Source: Saccharopolyspora sp. NFXS83 (GTDB lineage Bacteria > Actinomycetota > Actinomycetes > Mycobacteriales > Pseudonocardiaceae). Taken from it: DNA of 64,000 nucleotides. The stretch spans positions 1 to 64,000 of the forward strand of contig NZ_JAPFGB010000021.1 in NCBI RefSeq assembly GCF_026241095.1, given 5' to 3'. A program made the translations under genes and the position numbers. Shown here piece after piece: positions 1,197 to 29,122 of the stretch. The notes under the pieces were generated by a model. That model searched no databases. It saw only the letters and a list, made by a program, of their open reading frames with translations, and had not been told where the DNA came from. Each line of letters opens with the position of its first letter. Within the stretch, counting starts at the first letter, position 1.

Positions 1197-1452
1197 TCCG
1201 CGTCGTGCGTCACTCGGCGTGCGACGTGGCGCACGTCGCTACCGGCGGCGCCTGGGAGCTCGCTCGGCGCCGGGTGGGAATGCGCTGGGAACATCGAATT
1301 CCAACCACGTGGCATGTTTTCGCCCAGTCGTTTCCCAGCTGATCGGCAGTGCTTTCACGTCGAATTCGCCGGAATGCCGTCGGTAGGTTCGTCCATGTCG
1401 GATCCGAACGGACCCGGCGAAGGAGAAAGAATCACGACCAGGAGGTCGCACG

Positions 1453-1539
1453 ATGGGTTTCCCCGTTCCGGTTCCCGGTAAGCGCCCGCACTTCCCGCGT
1501 CCGCACCGCCCCGCTCCGGGTGAGCCACCGCGGAAGTGA
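1453..1539 (+). CDS. 28-residue proline/arginine-rich peptide, PrAMP-like or leader peptide
   Basis: The gene has an ideal ribosome binding site, AGGAGG at 1440-1445, seven bases before the ATG. The product has 28 residues, 10 of them proline, with six Lys/Arg, two His and one Glu (net charge about +5). Its centre reads GKRPHFPRPHRP, with a PRP motif and arginine-proline spacing like insect proline-rich antimicrobial peptides such as drosocin. There is no signal peptide or clear leader. It ends 66 bp before the ABC exporter, with a GC hairpin between. Either it is a secreted or cytosolic bioactive peptide, or a translated leader whose proline codons control the exporter. The resemblance is by eye only and may be convergent. 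Confidence 0.55.
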   Translation: MGFPVPVPGKRPHFPRPHRPAPGEPPRK

Positions 1540-1547
1540 CCGGTTCC

Positions 1548-1583
1548 GGAGGCCGGCGGCGTCCGCATCGCCGCCGGCCCTCC
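1548..1583 (+). other. Intercistronic hairpin between peptide gene and ABC exporter
   Basis: The arms gccggcggc (1552-1560) and gccgccggc (1570-1578) pair perfectly, and outer ggagg/cctcc pairs extend the stem past a one-base bulge. No T-run follows, so this is not a classical terminator. It could stabilise the upstream mRNA, attenuate, or hide the exporter's ribosome binding site region. Confidence 0.5.
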
Positions 1584-1605
1584 GGGCGCTCGAGGGAGGT
1601 GGACG

Positions 1606-3474
1606 ATGACCGCTGCGCCGGGAACTCGAGAGGTGTTCGCCCGGTTCCGCCCGTTCTTGCGGCCGGAACGCGGTGGACTGCTGGTGGCGGCGGTGCTGCT
1701 GGTGCTGGCCGCGCTGGCCGACACCGCGGCGATCCGGATGTTCATGCTGATCACCGACGAGGCGCTGGCCGCGGGCAGCCTCGACGCGTTCTGGACGCCG
1801 GGACTGTCCTGGCTGGCCATCGCGGCGTTCGGAGCGGCGGCCTCGTTCGGCGGGTCCTATCTCGCCGCGCGCACCGCCGAACGATTCCTGGTGCGCTTGC
1901 GCGCGCATGTTTTCGCGCACGTCCAACGATTGTCGCCCGATTTCTTCGCGCGCCGGAAAACGGGTGATCTGGTGGCCCGGTTGTCCGGTGACGTGGAAGC
2001 GGTGGAAAGGCTCGTCGCCTCCGGAATGGTGGAGACGGGAACGGCGTTGTTCAGCGTCGTGCTGTACGCGGGCGCCGCCCTTTACCTGCGCTGGGACCTG
2101 GCGCTGTTGTCCTTCGCGCTCGCCCCCGCTTTCTGGCTGGTGGCGCGCAGGTTCTCCGCCGGGATGCGCACCGCGTCCCGCGAGGAGCGCGCCGGCAACG
2201 GTGAGATCGCCACCGTCGTGGAAGAAGGGCTCTCGCACGTCGAGCTGGTGCAGGCCGGCAACCAGCAGCGCAGCCAGGACGCGAAGCTGCACGCCGCCTC
2301 GATGCGCTGGTTCCGCGCGAAGCTGGCCGAGGCGCGGCTGTCCGCGCTGTACGCGCCGCTGGTCACGATGGTCGAGACGGTGTGCATCCTGCTCGTCATC
2401 GGCGTCGGGGTCTGGGAGATCTCCGCCCAGCGCATCACCATCGGCGGCCTGCTGGCCTTCGCCGCCTACATCGGCTACCTGTACCCGCCGCTGCAGGACC
2501 TGGGCCGCATCACGATGGCCGTCACCGCCGCCCGCGCCGGATCGGAGCGGTTGATCGAGCTGCTCGACGCCCGGCCCGCGGTGGCCGACGCGCCAGGCGG
2601 CACCGCCGGGCTGCCGCCGCACCGGTCCGGCCGCGCCGTCGAGTTCGACCGGGTCGTCTTCCGCTATCCCCAGGCGGCCGAACCCGCGCTGCGGGACTTC
2701 CGGCTGCACGTCCGGCCGGGCGAGTTCGTGCTGATCACCGGGTCGAGCGGGGCGGGGAAGTCGACGCTGGCACGGTTGCTGCTGCGGTTCTACGACCCGG
2801 AGGCCGGGCGCGTGCTGCTCGACGGCGTGGACCTCACCGGACTGCCGCTGCACGTGGTGCGCGACCAGATCGGCCTGGTGCCGCAGGAAGCGGACGTGCT
2901 GCACGGAACGGTGGCGGACAACATCGCGTTCGCGCGGCCGGAGGCCGCCCGCACCGAGATCGTCGCCGCCGCGCGGGAGGCCGACGCCGATGAGTTCGTC
3001 CGCGCGCTGCCCGAGGGCTACGACACGACGCTCGGGGAGCGGGGCGCGTTGCTCTCCGGTGGTCAGCGCCGCCGCATCGCGATCGCCCGCGCGGTGCTGC
3101 GCCGCACCCCGGTGCTGGTGCTCGACGAGCCGACGAACGGCCTGGACGCGGCATCGAAGAGCAAGGTCGTCGCCGCGCTGCGCGCGTTGGCCCGCACCCG
3201 CACGACCATCCTGATCAGCCACGATCCGGAGCTGGCCGAGCTCGCCGACCGAGTCGTCGTGCTCGGAGGCGAGCCGACGTCGCGGCTCGACGTCCGGGAC
3301 GTGGCGGCTCGCTCCGCTGCAGGCACTCGCTCGATGCGGCACGACGTCCCGGCGGGCCGCGTGATCAGCGGCGACCTGTCCGCTCCGGCGCCGGACGACG
3401 CACCGACGGTGCGGCTGCGCCGGCCGTGGCCTGCCGGGTTCACCGATCTGCTGCACGCGCGCGGACGGCCGTGA
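1606..3474 (+). CDS. ABC exporter, fused permease and ATPase half-transporter
   Basis: This 622-residue protein is an ABCB-type half-transporter: an N-terminal six-helix membrane domain (residues about 10-300) and a C-terminal ATPase domain. The ATPase has Walker A GSSGAGKST (about 380), Q-loop VPQE, signature LSGGQRRR, Walker B VLVLDEPT with the catalytic Glu, and the switch His in ISHD. A proline/arginine-rich tail of about 60 residues follows the ATPase and is unusual. No C39 peptidase domain is present. Start ATG 1606 has the site GGGAGG. It lies in tandem with the short proline-rich peptide gene, so export of, or self-protection from, that peptide is plausible. Lipid or drug export is the alternative. 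Confidence 0.93.
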   Translation: MTAAPGTREVFARFRPFLRPERGGLLVAAVLLVLAALADTAAIRMFMLITDEALAAGSLDAFWTPGLSWLAIAAFGAAASFGGSYLAARTAERFLVRLRAHVFAHVQRLSPDFFARRKTGDLVARLSGDVEAVERLVASGMVETGTALFSVVLYAGAALYLRWDLALLSFALAPAFWLVARRFSAGMRTASREERAGNGEIATVVEEGLSHVELVQAGNQQRSQDAKLHAASMRWFRAKLAEARLSALYAPLVTMVETVCILLVIGVGVWEISAQRITIGGLLAFAAYIGYLYPPLQDLGRITMAVTAARAGSERLIELLDARPAVADAPGGTAGLPPHRSGRAVEFDRVVFRYPQAAEPALRDFRLHVRPGEFVLITGSSGAGKSTLARLLLRFYDPEAGRVLLDGVDLTGLPLHVVRDQIGLVPQEADVLHGTVADNIAFARPEAARTEIVAAAREADADEFVRALPEGYDTTLGERGALLSGGQRRRIAIARAVLRRTPVLVLDEPTNGLDAASKSKVVAALRALARTRTTILISHDPELAELADRVVVLGGEPTSRLDVRDVAARSAAGTRSMRHDVPAGRVISGDLSAPAPDDAPTVRLRRPWPAGFTDLLHARGRP

Positions 3475-23883: not shown

Positions 23884-24672
23884 GTGACCCACCCCGCTTA
23901 CGGCGAGCTGCGGCCGGTGACGCCGTTCGCCTCGGTGCTGCTCGCCGCCAACCCGGGCCCGATGACGCTGGACGGCACCAACACCTGGCTGATCGGCACG
24001 GGAGACGACCGCGCCGTGCTCGACCCCGGCCCCGACGACGGTGCGCACCTGGAGCGGATCGTCGAGCACGGCCCGGTGTCGCTGATCCTGCTCAGCCACC
24101 ACCACTTCGACCACGCCGAGGGCGTGGCGGAGCTGGCGGCCCGCACCGGAGCCCCCGTGCGGGCGCTGGACCCGCAGCTGTGCGCCGAGGCGGAACCGCT
24201 CACCGACGGCGAGGTCGTCGACGCTGCGGGAGTGCCGCTCACCGTGCTCGCCACCCCCGGTCACACCAGGGATTCGGTGTGCTTCCGCGCCGAGCACGAG
24301 GGTGCGTCGGCGGTGTTCACCGGCGACAGCATCCTGGGCCGGGGCACCACGGTCGTCGCCCACCCGGACGGGCACCTGGGGTCGTACCTGGCAACGCTGC
24401 GCGCCTTGGCGGCGTTGCCCGCGGGCGTTCCGGCGTTGCCGGGGCACGGCCCGGAACTGCCGGACGTCGCGGCGGCGGCGACCGGCTACCTGGCGCACCG
24501 GGAGCAGCGGCTCGGCCAGATCCGCGAGGTGGTGCGGAACAACGGCCCGCGCGTCACCGCCCGGGAGGTCGTGGAGATCGTCTACGCCGACGTGGACCCC
24601 GCGGTGTGGCCCGCCGCGGAGTGGAGCGTCGAAGCCCAGCTCACCTACCTCGCGGAACTGGGCGAACGCTGA
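23884..24672 (+). CDS. MBL-fold metallohydrolase (Rv3677c-like)
   Basis: The 262-residue metallo-beta-lactamase fold protein has the two-metal motif SHHHFDHAEG, a following His in TPGHTRDSVCF and an Asp in FTGDSILGRGT. The C-terminal winged-helix tail (REQRLGQIREVV, YLAELGE) is that of the LACTB2-like group, whose members act on RNA or thioesters. GTG start at 23884. It is cotranscribed with the NUDIX gene. Its place beside crp corresponds to Rv3677c in mycobacteria, although an MFS gene is inserted here. Confidence 0.9.
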   Translation: MTHPAYGELRPVTPFASVLLAANPGPMTLDGTNTWLIGTGDDRAVLDPGPDDGAHLERIVEHGPVSLILLSHHHFDHAEGVAELAARTGAPVRALDPQLCAEAEPLTDGEVVDAAGVPLTVLATPGHTRDSVCFRAEHEGASAVFTGDSILGRGTTVVAHPDGHLGSYLATLRALAALPAGVPALPGHGPELPDVAAAATGYLAHREQRLGQIREVVRNNGPRVTAREVVEIVYADVDPAVWPAAEWSVEAQLTYLAELGER

Positions 24673-24706
24673 CCGCCCGTTGTTGCTCGTGTGCCGCGTG
24701 GCGGTG

Positions 24707-24907
24707 CGGGTGGCGGAACCTCAGCGCCTGTCCGTGCACTTGTCTTGTCCTGTGTCTTGTCAGCCGGAGCCGCTGACGTTCCGCTGAGCGAGCAACCACG
24801 CAGACCAAGTGCGCGGACAGGCTTTCAGCGGCCTCCCGCAGCGGGATCGGTTCTCCCCTGCACGGCGAAATCGCCGTCCTCATGAGGAGGCCGCTGAGAA
24901 CCCGCTG
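24707..24907. repeat. Interspersed repeat, copy 3 (opposite orientation, with insert)
   Basis: cgggtggcggaacctcagcg (24707-24726) is the reverse complement of the right end of copies 1 and 2. cgctgagaacccgctg (24892-24907) matches the complement of the left end of copy 2. The interior differs and includes the palindromes cagccggagccgctg and cggcgaaatcgccg. It fills the gap between two convergent genes, in which no coding sequence is seen. Confidence 0.6.
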
Positions 24908-25013
24908 CGGTGCCGGCGCTTCGGGGGTTCCCGCTCCGCGGCTCCGCCGCTGGCAAGACAACGACCAACGAGCCCGGCAGGCTCCGAGGCGCCCTGGGCG
25001 GCGGGGCGTCACG

Positions 25014-26234
25014 TCACACCAGCGCGGCCTCGCGCGCGGGGAGCAGCGTGCCGCGCCGCAGCCACAGGCCGCCGGCCAGCAGTGCGCCGACCACTCCGGC
25101 GACGACGAACGCCGTCGGGGGTCCGGACGTCTCGACGAGCCTGCCGCTGACCGACTGGCCGACCGCCGAGCCCAGCGTCACCGCCGTCACCACCCAGCCG
25201 AACGCCTCCGTCTCGGTCCCCGCGGGCGCGGCGAGGTCCAGCGCGACCGAATGCGCCGTCGACTGCGGCGTGATCAGGCATCCGGCCAGCAGCAGCGCGA
25301 AGCACAGCCCCCACAGCGACTCCGGCACCGCCAGCAGGGCGACGAGCGCGGCGAAGCCCAGCAGCAGCGCGGGCAACCGCAGGTGCATCGGCCGCGGCCA
25401 GGGCCGCATCCCGTACAGCACGCCGAACACCACGGACGTCACCGACAGCGCGCTCAGCAGCAGGCCGCCCGCGTTCGGCGCCCCGGCCTGCACCGCGGAG
25501 GCGGGCACGCCGACCTCGACGAAGCCGATGAGGACGCCGAAGCCGAGCGCGGCCAGCGCCACCGTCCGCATCCCCGGCGCCCGGAACGCGCCGAGCATCC
25601 CGCCGCGCGGCCCGGTGTGCTGCGGGCGGAGCCTGCGGGCCGCTGGCGTCGCCGCGAAGCCGAGGCTGCCGATGATCATGCAGGCGGAGCCCGCGACGAC
25701 GCCGGTTCCGGGCCACGGCAGGGCGACCAGCAGCCCGGCCAGGCCGGGGCCCAGGATGAAGAACACCTCCATGCTGATCGCCTCGTACGAGTAGGCGGCG
25801 TCCCGGACCGGCCCGGCGGGCAGGAGCTGCGACCACAGCGCCCGGGAGGCCGGGGCGACCGTCGGCTGGCTGAGGCCCAGGGCGAACCCGAGCACCGTCA
25901 GCACCGCGACCGGTGCGCCCGCCTCGATGGCGGTGATCTCGGCGGCGGTGAGCAGGGCGAGCGCCGCGGACATCACCAGCATTGGGCGGCTCGGCCCGAT
26001 CCGGTCGATCACCCGGCTCTGCACCACCGAGCCGCACGCGACGCCGACCAGTTCGCCCGCCGAGACGAGCCCGGCGATGGCGAAGCTGCCGGTCTCCTTC
26101 TGCACGTAGAGCATCAGGGCCAGCCCGATCATGGCGATCGGCAGCCGCCCCAGCAGGGAGGTCAGGACGGGAGCGGTGGCTCCTGGTGTGCGCAGCGCAG
26201 CTCGGTAGTCGGCCAGCGTGATCGAATGGGACAC
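25014..26234 (-). CDS. MFS transporter
   Basis: The 406-residue protein has about 12 hydrophobic helices with typical MFS loops (LGRLPIAMIGLALMLYV at the start of the first helix, and SRVIDRIGPSRPML in the loop between helices 2 and 3). It is probably a drug or metabolite exporter in the inner membrane. The GTG at 26234 (VSHSITLADYRAAL) is preferred: a -10-like GATACT lies seven bases upstream, which fits a leaderless transcript. Repeated TGGTAC/GTACCA half-sites overlap the promoter (26237-26276), so a repressor probably controls it. No regulator gene adjoins. Confidence 0.9.
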   Translation of the reverse strand: MSHSITLADYRAALRTPGATAPVLTSLLGRLPIAMIGLALMLYVQKETGSFAIAGLVSAGELVGVACGSVVQSRVIDRIGPSRPMLVMSAALALLTAAEITAIEAGAPVAVLTVLGFALGLSQPTVAPASRALWSQLLPAGPVRDAAYSYEAISMEVFFILGPGLAGLLVALPWPGTGVVAGSACMIIGSLGFAATPAARRLRPQHTGPRGGMLGAFRAPGMRTVALAALGFGVLIGFVEVGVPASAVQAGAPNAGGLLLSALSVTSVVFGVLYGMRPWPRPMHLRLPALLLGFAALVALLAVPESLWGLCFALLLAGCLITPQSTAHSVALDLAAPAGTETEAFGWVVTAVTLGSAVGQSVSGRLVETSGPPTAFVVAGVVGALLAGGLWLRRGTLLPAREAALV

Positions 26235-26236
26235 GC

Positions 26237-26276
26237 GTACCAGTATCCGCGTAGTGGTACGCAAGTACCAAGTCAA
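26237..26276 (-). promoter_or_regulatory. Promoter with three GTACCA-type half-sites, MFS gene
   Basis: On the minus strand TTGACT (26276-26271) is a -35-like hexamer and GATACT (26247-26242) a -10-like hexamer, though 23 bp apart. The perfect 16-bp palindrome TGGTACgcaaGTACCA lies at 26255-26270, and a further GTACCA at 26237-26242. Repeats covering the region between the two boxes are a common operator design for TetR- or MarR-type repressors. Confidence 0.55.
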
Positions 26277-26897
26277 TTGATGGTGTTCTCCGTCGCCACC
26301 GGCGGTGGCCGGGCGCCCGGCCGGGACCAGGGCCGCTGACATGCGAAAGGACTGGGGCGTCGCCCCCGACGCGACGCTCCAGTCCTTTCGCTTGCGCGGC
26401 CCGTCCCCCGACCAACCACGCCTTCCTGCCCTCCGATCGTCGGCCCCGAACCCGGTACCGGAGGTGGTCCGTGCTGTTGTGCGACTTCGCCGCCCTCCCC
26501 GATGGGGAGGTCCCGCGAGGGGGCGACGCCGCTGGAATGCGAGTCCTTCTCTAGGTAAGACGTTGCGACCTCAGGTCCGGTTGCACGAGCCGGTGAATTC
26601 TTTCCCGATCGCCGTCGTTCCTCGTGACACCAGTGTGCCCCCGGACCACACCGCAGAAACCGGGTACAACGTCCCCTACATGAGTGGTCACCCGGCGTGT
26701 CCGTCGTCGGCCGCTTGCTTCCGCGGCTCCGCGGCTGCCGCCGAGCGGGCTCGGGGAAGGCCGCAGGGCCGCCGTGCGGCGCTGCGCCGTCCGCTGCGGG
26801 GCGTTCATCGGCCGCATGGGAACGCGGGCGCCCACGGCGTGCGCGAGGAGCGCGGAGGGCGTCCGGCGGGGAGGCGCGGACCGCATGCGGGCATGCG
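26277..26897. other. 620-bp gene-free region with a large hairpin
   Basis: An inverted repeat gcgaaaggactgg (26343-26355) and ccagtcctttcgc (26379-26391) flanks an inner gcgtcg/cgacgc pairing; it may be a transcription end point. The remainder up to the crp terminator has open frames but none with a ribosome binding site or recognisable family. Codon pattern does not look coding. Confidence 0.5.
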
Positions 26898-26953
26898 AAA
26901 ACGCGCGCCGGCTGATGGGTCCGAACTCAGGCGGACCCATCAGGCGACGCGCG
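26898..26953 (-). terminator. Terminator of crp
   Basis: Read on the minus strand, CGCGCG and CTGATGGGTCCG pair with CGGACCCATCAG and CGCGCG around a short loop, followed by TTTT. It begins 49 bases after the crp stop codon. Confidence 0.85.
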
Positions 26954-27001
26954 TTACGACGAACCGGTCGGTGGACCGGCCGACGCGCGAGCCGTGGGGG
27001 C

Positions 27002-27676
27002 TCAGCGTGCGCGGCGGGCCAACCGCTCCGGGTCGAGGATCAGCACGCTCTTGCCTTCCAGGCGCAGCCAGCCGCGGTGCGCGAAGTCGGCCAACGCCTT
27101 GTTCACGGTCTCCCGCGAGGCGCCGACGTACTGCGCGATCTCTTCCTGCGTGAGGTCGTGGGTGACCCGCAGCAGGCCCGCTTCCTGGCTGCCGAAGCGC
27201 TGCGCGAGCTGCAGCAGCGCCTTGGCGACGCGACCGGGCACGTCGGTGAAGATCAGGTCGGCGAGCATGCCGTTGGTCCGGCGCAGCCTGCGCGCGACGA
27301 CCCGCAGCAGCTGCTCGGCGATCTCCGGCCGGGTGCCGATCCACTGCCGCAGCGCGCTGCGGTCCATGGTCAGCGCGCGCACCTCGGTCACGGTGGTGGC
27401 CGTCGACGTGCGCGGGCCCGGATCGAAGATGGACAGCTCGCCGAACATGTCCGACGGGCCCATGATCGCCAGCAGGTTCTCGCGGCCGTCCGGAGACTTG
27501 CGCCCGAGCTTGACCTTGCCGTTCTGGATGATGTAGAGCCGGTCGCCCGGCTCGCCTTCGGCGAAGATCACGTGTCCACGCGGGAACTCAGACGGTTCCA
27601 GCGATTGGGTCAGCGCCTCCGCTGCGGCCGGTTCCACGCCCTGGAAGATTCCGGCGCGGGAAAGGGTCTCGTCCAC
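27002..27676 (-). CDS. crp: Crp/Fnr-family transcription regulator (Rv3676/GlxR orthologue)
   Basis: The 224-residue protein is a cAMP-type regulator. The N-terminal cyclic-nucleotide domain contains [19 protein letters not shown] and [18 protein letters not shown], where the Glu and the Arg-Thr of the phosphate cassette contact cAMP. A dimer helix and a C-terminal winged helix ([20 protein letters not shown]) follow. Length and sequence style match mycobacterial Crp and corynebacterial GlxR. GTG start 27676 has GGAGGGA upstream. It is monocistronic, with a strong terminator. It should be a global regulator of carbon and energy genes; a direct target in the window was not found. Confidence 0.95.
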
Positions 27677-27769
27677 CTCGTCCCTCCATGTTGAGACGCG
27701 GCGGCTCGTTCGATGCGGCACCCGCGTGCGCGGGCACCGGACTGTGCCGCCGATCACTACCAGTTGAGT

Positions 27770-28045
27770 TTAAGACTGGTCGCGGGAACGGCGAGTTCGC
27801 AGCTTGCCGGCGCGTCCCACCCTGCGTAGCTGGAACAGCTCCAGCGCACGTCCAATTCCCTGCCGGAACAGCGCCCGGACCTCGTCCGGCCGGGCGTTCT
27901 CCAGCAGCTCTTCAACCTCGTTCTCTTGCACCGCGACGTGCCGCAAGCGTGCCTCCACGCGCTCCATGAAGAGCGTGAAGAACATGATCACTAGCGGAAC
28001 GACGATAACGAACCAGGCAGTCATGATGCTTGAATCCTCGCTCAT
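27770..28045 (-). CDS. Small single-pass membrane protein (Rv3675 position)
   Basis: The 91-residue protein begins [20 protein letters not shown] and has one N-terminal membrane helix (to about residue 26). A cytoplasmic tail follows, with a charged helix ([20 protein letters not shown]) and a basic C-terminus ([18 protein letters not shown]). ATG 28045 is preferred; a second Met (MTAWF) seven codons later is possible. A small membrane protein stands between crp and nth in mycobacteria too. Function unknown. Confidence 0.7.
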
Positions 28046-28129
28046 GCCTTCGAGACGGACGCAACCGGGGGTGGGTTGCCCGTCGATGGGGTCGGGTTCG
28101 GGTGTCGCCGTGGTCCGTACTCTGGTGGA

Positions 28130-29122
28130 GTGCCGGAGCCAGCCCACGACAGTTCTCAGCCTGGTCGATCATCCTCACATCAGCCTTCGGCGGGCCGGTC
28201 GGCGCCCACCCGAACCACGGTCGCCGGGAAGGTGAACACCGGCTCTTCGCGTGCCCGACCAGCGGAAACAACCGGTGGGGCGGCGGCGAGCCGCTCCTCG
28301 GCACCCGGCCGGGCGAAGCCCGCGGCCCGTCGTGCCGCGTCCCGCGCGGAGACGCGGACCGGGTTGGTCCGGCGGGCGCGGCGCATGGTCCGCACCCTCG
28401 CCGAAGCCTATCCGGACGCGCACTGCGAGCTCGACTTCGGTGACCCGCTGCAACTGGCGGTGGCGACCATCCTGTCCGCGCAGTGCACGGACAAGCGGGT
28501 CAACCAGGTCACCCCCGCCTTGTTCGCGCGCTACCCGGAGGCCGCCGACTACGCGGGCGCCGACCGGACCGAGCTGGAGGAGATGATCCGCTCCACCGGC
28601 TTCTACCGGAACAAGGCGAACTCCCTGATGGGCCTGGGCGCCGCGCTCGTGGACGAGCACGGCGGGCAGGTGCCGCCGCGGCTGGCGGACCTGGTGAAGC
28701 TGCCGGGCATCGGCCGCAAGACCGCCAACGTGATCCTCGGCAACGCCTTCGACGTCCCCGGCATCACCGTGGACACGCACTTCGGTCGGCTGGTGCGCCG
28801 CTGGGGCTGGACGGCGGAGGAGGACCCGGTCAAGGTCGAGCACGCGATCGGCGAGCTGATCCCCCGCAAGGAGTGGACGATGCTCTCGCACTACGTGATC
28901 TTCCACGGGCGCCGCGTGTGCCACGCGCGCAAGCCCGCGTGCGGCGCGTGCCTGCTGGCGAAGGACTGCCCGGCGTTCGGCGCGGGCCCCGAGGAGCCGC
29001 GGGCGGCGGCGAAGCTGGTCCGCGGCCCGGAGGCGCCGCGGCTGCTGGAGCTGGCCGGGGTCGCCGACGAGCTGGACGAGAAGACCGTCGAGCAGGCCGC
29101 GGCGAAGGAGCCGGACGCGTGA
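28130..29122 (+). CDS. nth: Endonuclease III, base-excision repair glycosylase/AP lyase
   Basis: The core (about residues 90-310 of 330) is endonuclease III, which removes oxidised pyrimidines from DNA. It shows [19 protein letters not shown] with the catalytic Lys region, the helix-hairpin-helix [13 protein letters not shown], catalytic Asp in [13 protein letters not shown], and the 4Fe-4S ligands C-x6-C-x2-C-x5-C in [17 protein letters not shown]. The N-terminal 85 residues are Ser/Arg/Ala-rich and disordered; the true start may be later, for example the ATG at about 28385. The last four bases overlap the TlpA-like gene. Confidence 0.93.

Follow-up and report, generated by a model that had tools for sequence, protein, structure and literature searches.

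A peptide encoded together with its own exporter is in itself an already known kind of system, as in the leaderless bacteriocins and the lasso peptide and lanthipeptide systems. McjD-like RiPP half-exporters are half-size ABC exporters without a peptidase that are devoted to one peptide, and the SapB and class III lanthipeptide operons (ramCSAB) combine a small precursor with ABC exporters and with a kinase domain contained in the modifying enzyme. Proline-rich antimicrobial peptides (PrAMPs) are represented by drosocin and apidaecin in insects and by Bac7 in mammals. According to a passage in PMC11580447, leaderless bacteriocins of the aureocin A53/lacticin Q type, the actinobacterial ones included, are small and act without a cleaved leader, aureocin A53 being a highly cationic peptide of 51 residues with five tryptophans. 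In Bacillus subtilis, as outlined in an excerpt of PMC4191407, the small ORF bmrB, a hairpin and an ABC exporter follow one another, the terminator being situated within the bmrB coding region.

In the window, the stretch of 64,000 nucleotides of Saccharopolyspora sp. NFXS83 DNA that we analysed, a peptide gene, a GC hairpin and an ABC exporter gene follow one another (Table 1), the order that a sequence-only reading of this DNA had proposed. The 28-codon gene with an AGGAGG site described in that reading was also confirmed from the window sequence; the encoded peptide, MGFPVPVPGKRPHFPRPHRPAPGEPPRK, has 36% proline and six Lys/Arg residues, as had been stated. A high proline content combined with arginine and lysine is a PrAMP feature, and the PRP motif is present as well; serine, threonine and cysteine are absent. 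The peptide matched none of the Pfam/NCBIfam families. The CGACCAGGAGGTC stretch at the stem-loop around the ribosome binding site is kept in the genus sequences compared, and this structure may gate translation of the peptide gene. A TAGGTT (1384–1389), kept as TAG[GAT]TT in the genus sequences, was noticed by eye some 50 nt before the ribosome site and could be a candidate −10 element; a sigma-70 scan around these positions did not find a promoter. The exporter belongs by sequence to the broad MsbA/ABCB group, which also transports lipids and drugs, and it does not reach the cut-off of any of the 25 NCBIfam models listed; the Pfam scan listed no C39 peptidase domain in it.

Table 1. Features of the peptide–exporter cassette in the window
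Feature	Position	Strand	Basis or remark
CGACC-AGGA-GGTCG stem-loop, 5-bp stem, Shine-Dalgarno AGGA in the loop	1435..1448	+	sequence and predicted fold
AGGAGG ribosome binding site of the peptide gene	1440..1445	+	7 nt before ATG 1453; kept in G001–G005
28-aa peptide gene: MGFPVPVPGK front, then a Pro/Arg/His tail	1453..1539	+	ORF, orthologues, dN/dS
GC hairpin core, no T tract	1551..1579	+	predicted; starts 11 nt after the peptide stop
ABC half-exporter, 622 aa, one TMD and one NBD	1606..3474	+	PF00664 (ABC_membrane), PF00005 (ABC_tran)

A proline-rich ORF with a Shine-Dalgarno sequence precedes the orthologous exporter in five other genomes of the genus (G001–G005), and also in S. rosea, S. 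flava, S. ipomoeae and strain HNM0986, the last apparently being G004 again and not an extra genome. Length differences between these ORFs preserve the frame. Among the four closest sequences dN was 0.02–0.11 versus a dS of 0.15–0.44, and in comparisons with the more divergent G004 the values were 0.29–0.36 and 0.52–1.00, all of them based on few changes (three synonymous and one nonsynonymous in the closest pair). Within the first 10 codons each pair differs by 1–4 synonymous and 0–1 nonsynonymous changes. The proline-rich ORF retained ahead of the same exporter in the orthologues, together with a dN lower than dS, makes the peptide ORF of the window look like a real gene. Two of the checks suggested with the sequence-only reading, the presence of the peptide at orthologous exporters and purifying selection on it, thus came out in its favour in the orthologues read, the second on a small number of changes.

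The exporter searches (E up to 1e-108) gave matches in 58 of the 297 genomes of the window's family and, at the class level, in 25 of 394, the window's own included. The 107 loci read comprise 77 of the 97 places from the family search, L081, all 27 class-search places outside the window's genome, and L035 and L036; the 20 family-search places left out are L098, where the contig ends close upstream, L140, whose stretch gave no exporter match, and 18 others. A small ORF of biased composition lies upstream of 106 of these 107 exporters, 104 of the ORFs being assigned with a script and two by eye (L118, L144); for nine of the 104 a choice by eye replaced the script's pick, and by-eye trimming was applied to 11 start sites. 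No peptide was visible in the upstream DNA of L173 only, the candidates in L155 and L170 are weak, and three of the 104 peptides have no Shine-Dalgarno match. The automated rule accepted ORFs of 22–85 aa starting with ATG and a Shine-Dalgarno match of at least three bases, or with GTG and a match of at least four, in which the three commonest residues make up at least half. By this rule, sense stretches contained an ORF in 91 of 105 cases, antisense stretches in 28 of 105, stretches lying 700 nt further upstream in 18 of 65, and stretches at other ABC exporters from relatives in 3 of 20; chance alone lets roughly one in four GC-rich control stretches through. An earlier version of the rule gave 92 of 106 versus 6 of 36, with L037–L052 used as controls (L053–L068, L053 being from Halosaccharopolyspora, were excluded from the upstream reading), and its third control, other genes with 14 of 60, is of little use, 7 of these 14 being cassettes themselves. 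The 91/105 run and the earlier 92/106 run are the only automated counts free of by-eye picks. Both named records found, one of Nonomuraea gerenzanensis and one of a Streptomyces nigrescens plasmid, contain the expected peptide; they are related to loci already read and serve as a check of the rule, not as an independent lineage. The window pair is one member of a large, apparently undescribed actinobacterial set of peptide–exporter cassettes.

Two arrangements were also observed in this set. In contig 234 of G299 (24093–28475) two exporters of the subfamily are adjacent, each with its own candidate peptide (L154 and the weak L155). A kinase-type cassette, L225, is located on the Streptomyces nigrescens plasmid SNP1, and cassettes can therefore occupy accessory replicons.

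The 101 distinct peptides (L118, L144 and L173 are excluded from the composition statistics) have 25–68 residues, with a median of 43, and the net charge (K+R−D−E) is positive in 93 of them. Phe, Ile, Leu and Val account for 38% of residues 3–9 versus 6% from residue 13 onward, and the front is more hydrophobic than the tail in 90 of the 101; control ORFs that pass the rule have a weaker contrast (0.18 vs. 0.08 in antisense and 0.25 vs. 0.13 further upstream). Judged by these compositions, the putative hydrophobic front tag is a statistical trend and not a strict motif. The tails are rich in Pro, Trp/Gly, Cys/His, Lys/Ala/Pro, Arg/Trp, His/Arg/Ser, Tyr/Gly or Arg/Ser according to class, and their compositions differ between exporter clades. 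On the maximum-likelihood tree of 64 exporters (L079, with a peptide identical to that of L090, is excluded from the trees) the peptide class changes 12 times, the minimum being 9 and the mean after shuffling 44.4, with none of 200 shuffles as low; near relatives in the tree inflate this clustering, and the ten class labels were assigned by us, one being 'other' and several not being single clades (FPxP needs four changes). Ten representative peptides compared with Pfam/NCBIfam did not reach the cut-off of any family, the one weak match being to KRTAP at 16.4 bits versus 21.1.

Some of the classes have features of their own. All ten tree cassettes of the Trp/Gly class (L077, L084–L088, L105, L109, L110, L112) have the same downstream neighbour, co-directional in some cassettes and convergent in others. 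In L077, L085, L088 and L109 this neighbour was interpreted by eye as an FAD monooxygenase; it is possibly Trp-modifying or possibly mere synteny. The Cys/His-class exporters L106, L111, L113, L114 and L115, and also L159, bear a long C-terminal extension (808–932 aa in total), in which no Pfam domain was found in the four scanned (L106, L111, L113, L159).

Two related peptide genes precede one exporter in seven loci (L093, L095, L097, L107, L108, L156, L176). In five of the six pairs compared, similarity is higher over the first 12 residues than over the tail, and in L107 these 12 are identical; L176 behaves in the opposite way. The tandem scan also returned L128, L145 and L148, which have 5 of 12 matching front residues and were taken for chance. 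The tandem pairs with alike fronts therefore favour a product with a shared front and argue against a cis-acting leader.

In our opinion these data probably reflect an exported-peptide cassette, in which the front of the peptide would be a tag for a dedicated ABC half-exporter and the tail would be the cargo. This interpretation builds on what the sequences themselves offer: the pairing, the two-part trend, the coding selection on the window peptide, the co-divergence of peptide class and exporter clade, the tandem paralogues and the hairpin; we infer from them the recognition, export and activity of the peptide. The peptide would be made from a strong ribosome site and would consist of a short hydrophobic front (MGFPVPVPGK in the window) and a low-complexity, non-hydrophobic and usually cationic tail. 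The adjacent exporter would recognise the front as a tag and extrude the peptide, the hairpin would lower exporter output relative to that of the peptide, and outside the cell the peptide may bind anionic surfaces or polymers and play a bacteriocin-like or cell-surface role. Both a PrAMP and an attenuator leader are less likely than such a cassette.

One of the two possibilities put forward in the sequence-only reading was a bacterial PrAMP with export and immunity. Such a peptide would make its way into competitors and obstruct the exit tunnel of the ribosome, the ABC protein providing both export and immunity. One part of this proposal stood: a cationic proline-rich peptide is encoded beside its own exporter, as orthology, coding selection, tandem paralogues and the family-wide pairing indicate. 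Its PrAMP identity, on the other hand, appears weak. The composition and the PRP motif of the window peptide speak for it, as does the fact that 20 of the 101 family peptides have at least 20% proline, including a P/K-rich clade (PLKK) outside the window's family. However, proline-richness is one of about ten compositions paired with the same exporter subfamily, which also accompanies Trp/Gly-, Cys/His- or Arg/Ser-rich peptides, and the PrAMP-like centre GKRPHFPRPHRP is replaced in the more distant orthologues. The best-conserved part of the peptide is the N-terminus (MGFPxPxPGK) and not this centre, a start like MGFPxPxP being kept across the Saccharopolyspora orthologues with a varying tail. 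A further check suggested with that reading, the conservation of PRP-type peptides upstream of orthologous exporters, gave a divided answer: the proline-rich ORF is kept, but PRP was found in 7 of the 11 FPxP-class peptides listed and is absent in four. No PDB chain of at least 20 residues matched the window peptide at E values up to 10; many PrAMPs, with fewer than 20 residues, fall outside the set searched. Taken together, we regard a tunnel-blocking PrAMP as unlikely at this locus.

The hairpin between the two genes is a family-wide feature. An inverted repeat above all 20 mononucleotide shuffles lies between peptide and exporter in 91 of 101 loci, with a median stem of 15 bp and a median distance of 18 nt from the stop; a T-rich tail follows in 10 of 101, the window not among them. 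In the window, a fold as good as the extended stem is reached by 12 of 200 dinucleotide shuffles (z −1.8). The stem is kept in the seven aligned orthologues, and for four of the 16 predicted pairs at least one sequence has both partners replaced; the net covariation term over these seven is slightly unfavourable (+0.78). None of 200 shuffles of the larger 183-nt region (1430–1612) folds as well as the native sequence (z −3.2), and the hairpin is still formed in the best fold of this region. The hairpin may be a partial terminator or an RNA stabiliser that raises peptide output above that of the exporter.

The order of a small ORF, a hairpin and an ABC exporter also invites comparison with the B. 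subtilis bmrBCD precedent (PMC4191407, in the part describing this operon), and the stable fold of the 183-nt region agrees with a regulatory leader, in which ribosome stalling in the ORF would alter RNA folding and so control the exporter, as in bmrB-bmrCD. A proline-stalling leader of this kind had been put forward as the second possibility in the sequence-only reading, and it fits poorly. The hairpins begin after the stop codon, whereas that account places the bmrB terminator inside the coding region; no terminator with a T tract in the ORF or overlapping it was found in the window, and the rarity of T-rich tails across the family also speaks against attenuation, as may the persistence of the hairpin in the best fold. 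Stalling does not readily account for tandem paralogues, some ten tail compositions (W/G, H/C, R/S or K tails among them) or a linked kinase. We consequently give little credence to a stalling leader and return to the exported-peptide cassette.

In a sister branch of the cassettes, the peptide and the exporter are joined by a third gene. A Hanks-type kinase follows the exporter in 23 of the 84 cassettes with the peptide and downstream DNA in view, where 'no kinase' stands for no match in the downstream stretch covered (for 54 loci this was 420 to 3327 nt, with a median of 1465), and the L182 match among the 23 spans 31 residues. For the window cassette (L001) no kinase match was found in 1.5 kb downstream. 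The kinases are stand-alone proteins of about 270–340 aa, and the two that were scanned matched Pfam Pkinase and PK_Tyr_Ser-Thr only. The exporter stop and the kinase start overlap in the 10 junctions inspected (ATGA in nine, GTGA in one), the S. nigrescens junction, outside these ten, likewise being ATGA, and a possible overlapping start exists in 22 of the 23, the exception being L126; for L178 and L179 the overlap was counted from the junction reading, the scan having stopped at the wrong place. Kinases overlapping the exporter stop by ATGA or GTGA were seen in L036, L082, L107, L108, L175, L177–L181 and L225. In several of them, by eye, HLDxKP and DLS replace the HRD and DFG motifs.

Serine and threonine make up at least 10% of the peptide in 22 of the 23 kinase cassettes versus 8 of 60 others, with medians of 15% and 5% (Mann-Whitney p 2e-11, 23 vs. 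61). Because kinase presence changes only about 3–4 times on the exporter tree, which leaves a sign test unable to reach significance, this correlation is not independent evidence, and the association of the kinase with Ser/Thr, drawn from these compositions, is offered as a hypothesis only. Within the exported-peptide cassette, the kinase of this branch would probably phosphorylate Ser/Thr residues of the tail before export.

The linked kinase also bears on another interpretation, namely that the small protein binds and regulates the ABC transporter, the true substrate of which is something else, a lipid or a drug. The MsbA/ABCB-like character of the exporter is in line with it, and the peptide class tracks the exporter phylogeny as would be the case for any interacting pair. 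A binding surface would, however, be expected to be kept, yet the tail composition changes entirely, and the coupling of a kinase with Ser/Thr-richer tails suggests the processing of a product; we find a regulatory role improbable. A spurious ORF in a GC-rich spacer with codon-like bias is very improbable, for although chance yields biased ORFs in roughly one in four GC-rich stretches and the dN/dS values are based on few changes, dN is lower than dS, the Shine-Dalgarno sequence is kept, the length differences preserve the frame and the ORF occupies the same place in the orthologues read.

Several neighbouring genes were set aside when the limits of the exported-peptide cassette were drawn. 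An OYE oxidoreductase upstream and an S9 prolyl oligopeptidase downstream, on the convergent strand, are common to close relatives. The S9 gene had no match in S. rosea (L032, with about 3 kb of flank, and L093) or in L035, L095 and L097 (of which the last two have shorter flanks), the peptide–exporter pair being present in all of them. Since the S9 gene gave no match where the pair remains, both it and the OYE gene were excluded from the cassette, and the position of a prolyl peptidase beside a proline-rich peptide is probably a coincidence. A downstream DUF1059 gene was likewise rejected: of the 13 loci compared, L078 and L095 alone gave matches.

Going beyond the single locus, we suggest tentatively that the cassettes constitute a new class of secreted peptides, in which one exporter subfamily would serve a short hydrophobic tag with interchangeable, hypervariable low-complexity tails (Pro, Trp/Gly, Cys/His, Arg/Ser) across Actinomycetes, one branch having acquired a Hanks kinase, its start overlapping the exporter stop, that would phosphorylate the tail before export. 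The literature search found no description of such a peptide–exporter pairing with exchangeable low-complexity tails, a hairpin and an optional kinase, which is not proof of novelty. If this view is correct, actinobacterial genomes store very small exported peptides that are missed by the Pfam/NCBIfam libraries, the exporter is an easy handle for finding them, and the kinase branch represents a new kind of peptide tailoring. The cassettes may also be considered a natural experiment, in which one ABC exporter would recognise a short tag and carry unrelated tails, and they make the role of low-complexity secreted peptides directly testable.

Among the described systems, the McjD type resembles the window in that a half-size exporter, with no peptidase listed, is paired with one peptide, to which we propose that it is devoted; in contrast to the McjD type, no modifying enzyme was recognised in the window cassette and the cargo differs. 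A small precursor with an ABC exporter, and a kinase in the kinase-bearing cassettes, are shared with SapB and the class III lanthipeptides, but the cassette kinase is a stand-alone protein, and the window version has no kinase match and neither a Ser/Thr/Cys core nor LanKC. The window peptide is Pro/Arg-rich with a PRP motif like the PrAMPs; unlike them, it belongs to a two-gene exporter cassette and has a core that varies among distant orthologues behind a conserved hydrophobic front. The succession of small ORF, hairpin and ABC exporter is that of bmrB-bmrCD as far as the operon is outlined in PMC4191407, while the cassettes differ from it in a hairpin that lies beyond the ORF and in most cases lacks a T tract, in tandem paralogues and in coding selection on the peptide. 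Finally, the peptides are small, like the leaderless bacteriocins, which the passage in PMC11580447 describes as active without a cleaved leader. In contrast to those bacteriocins, the window peptide and the ten representatives stay below every family cut-off, and the cassettes combine varied low-complexity tails with one fixed subfamily of exporters and a hairpin, and some of them include a kinase as well.
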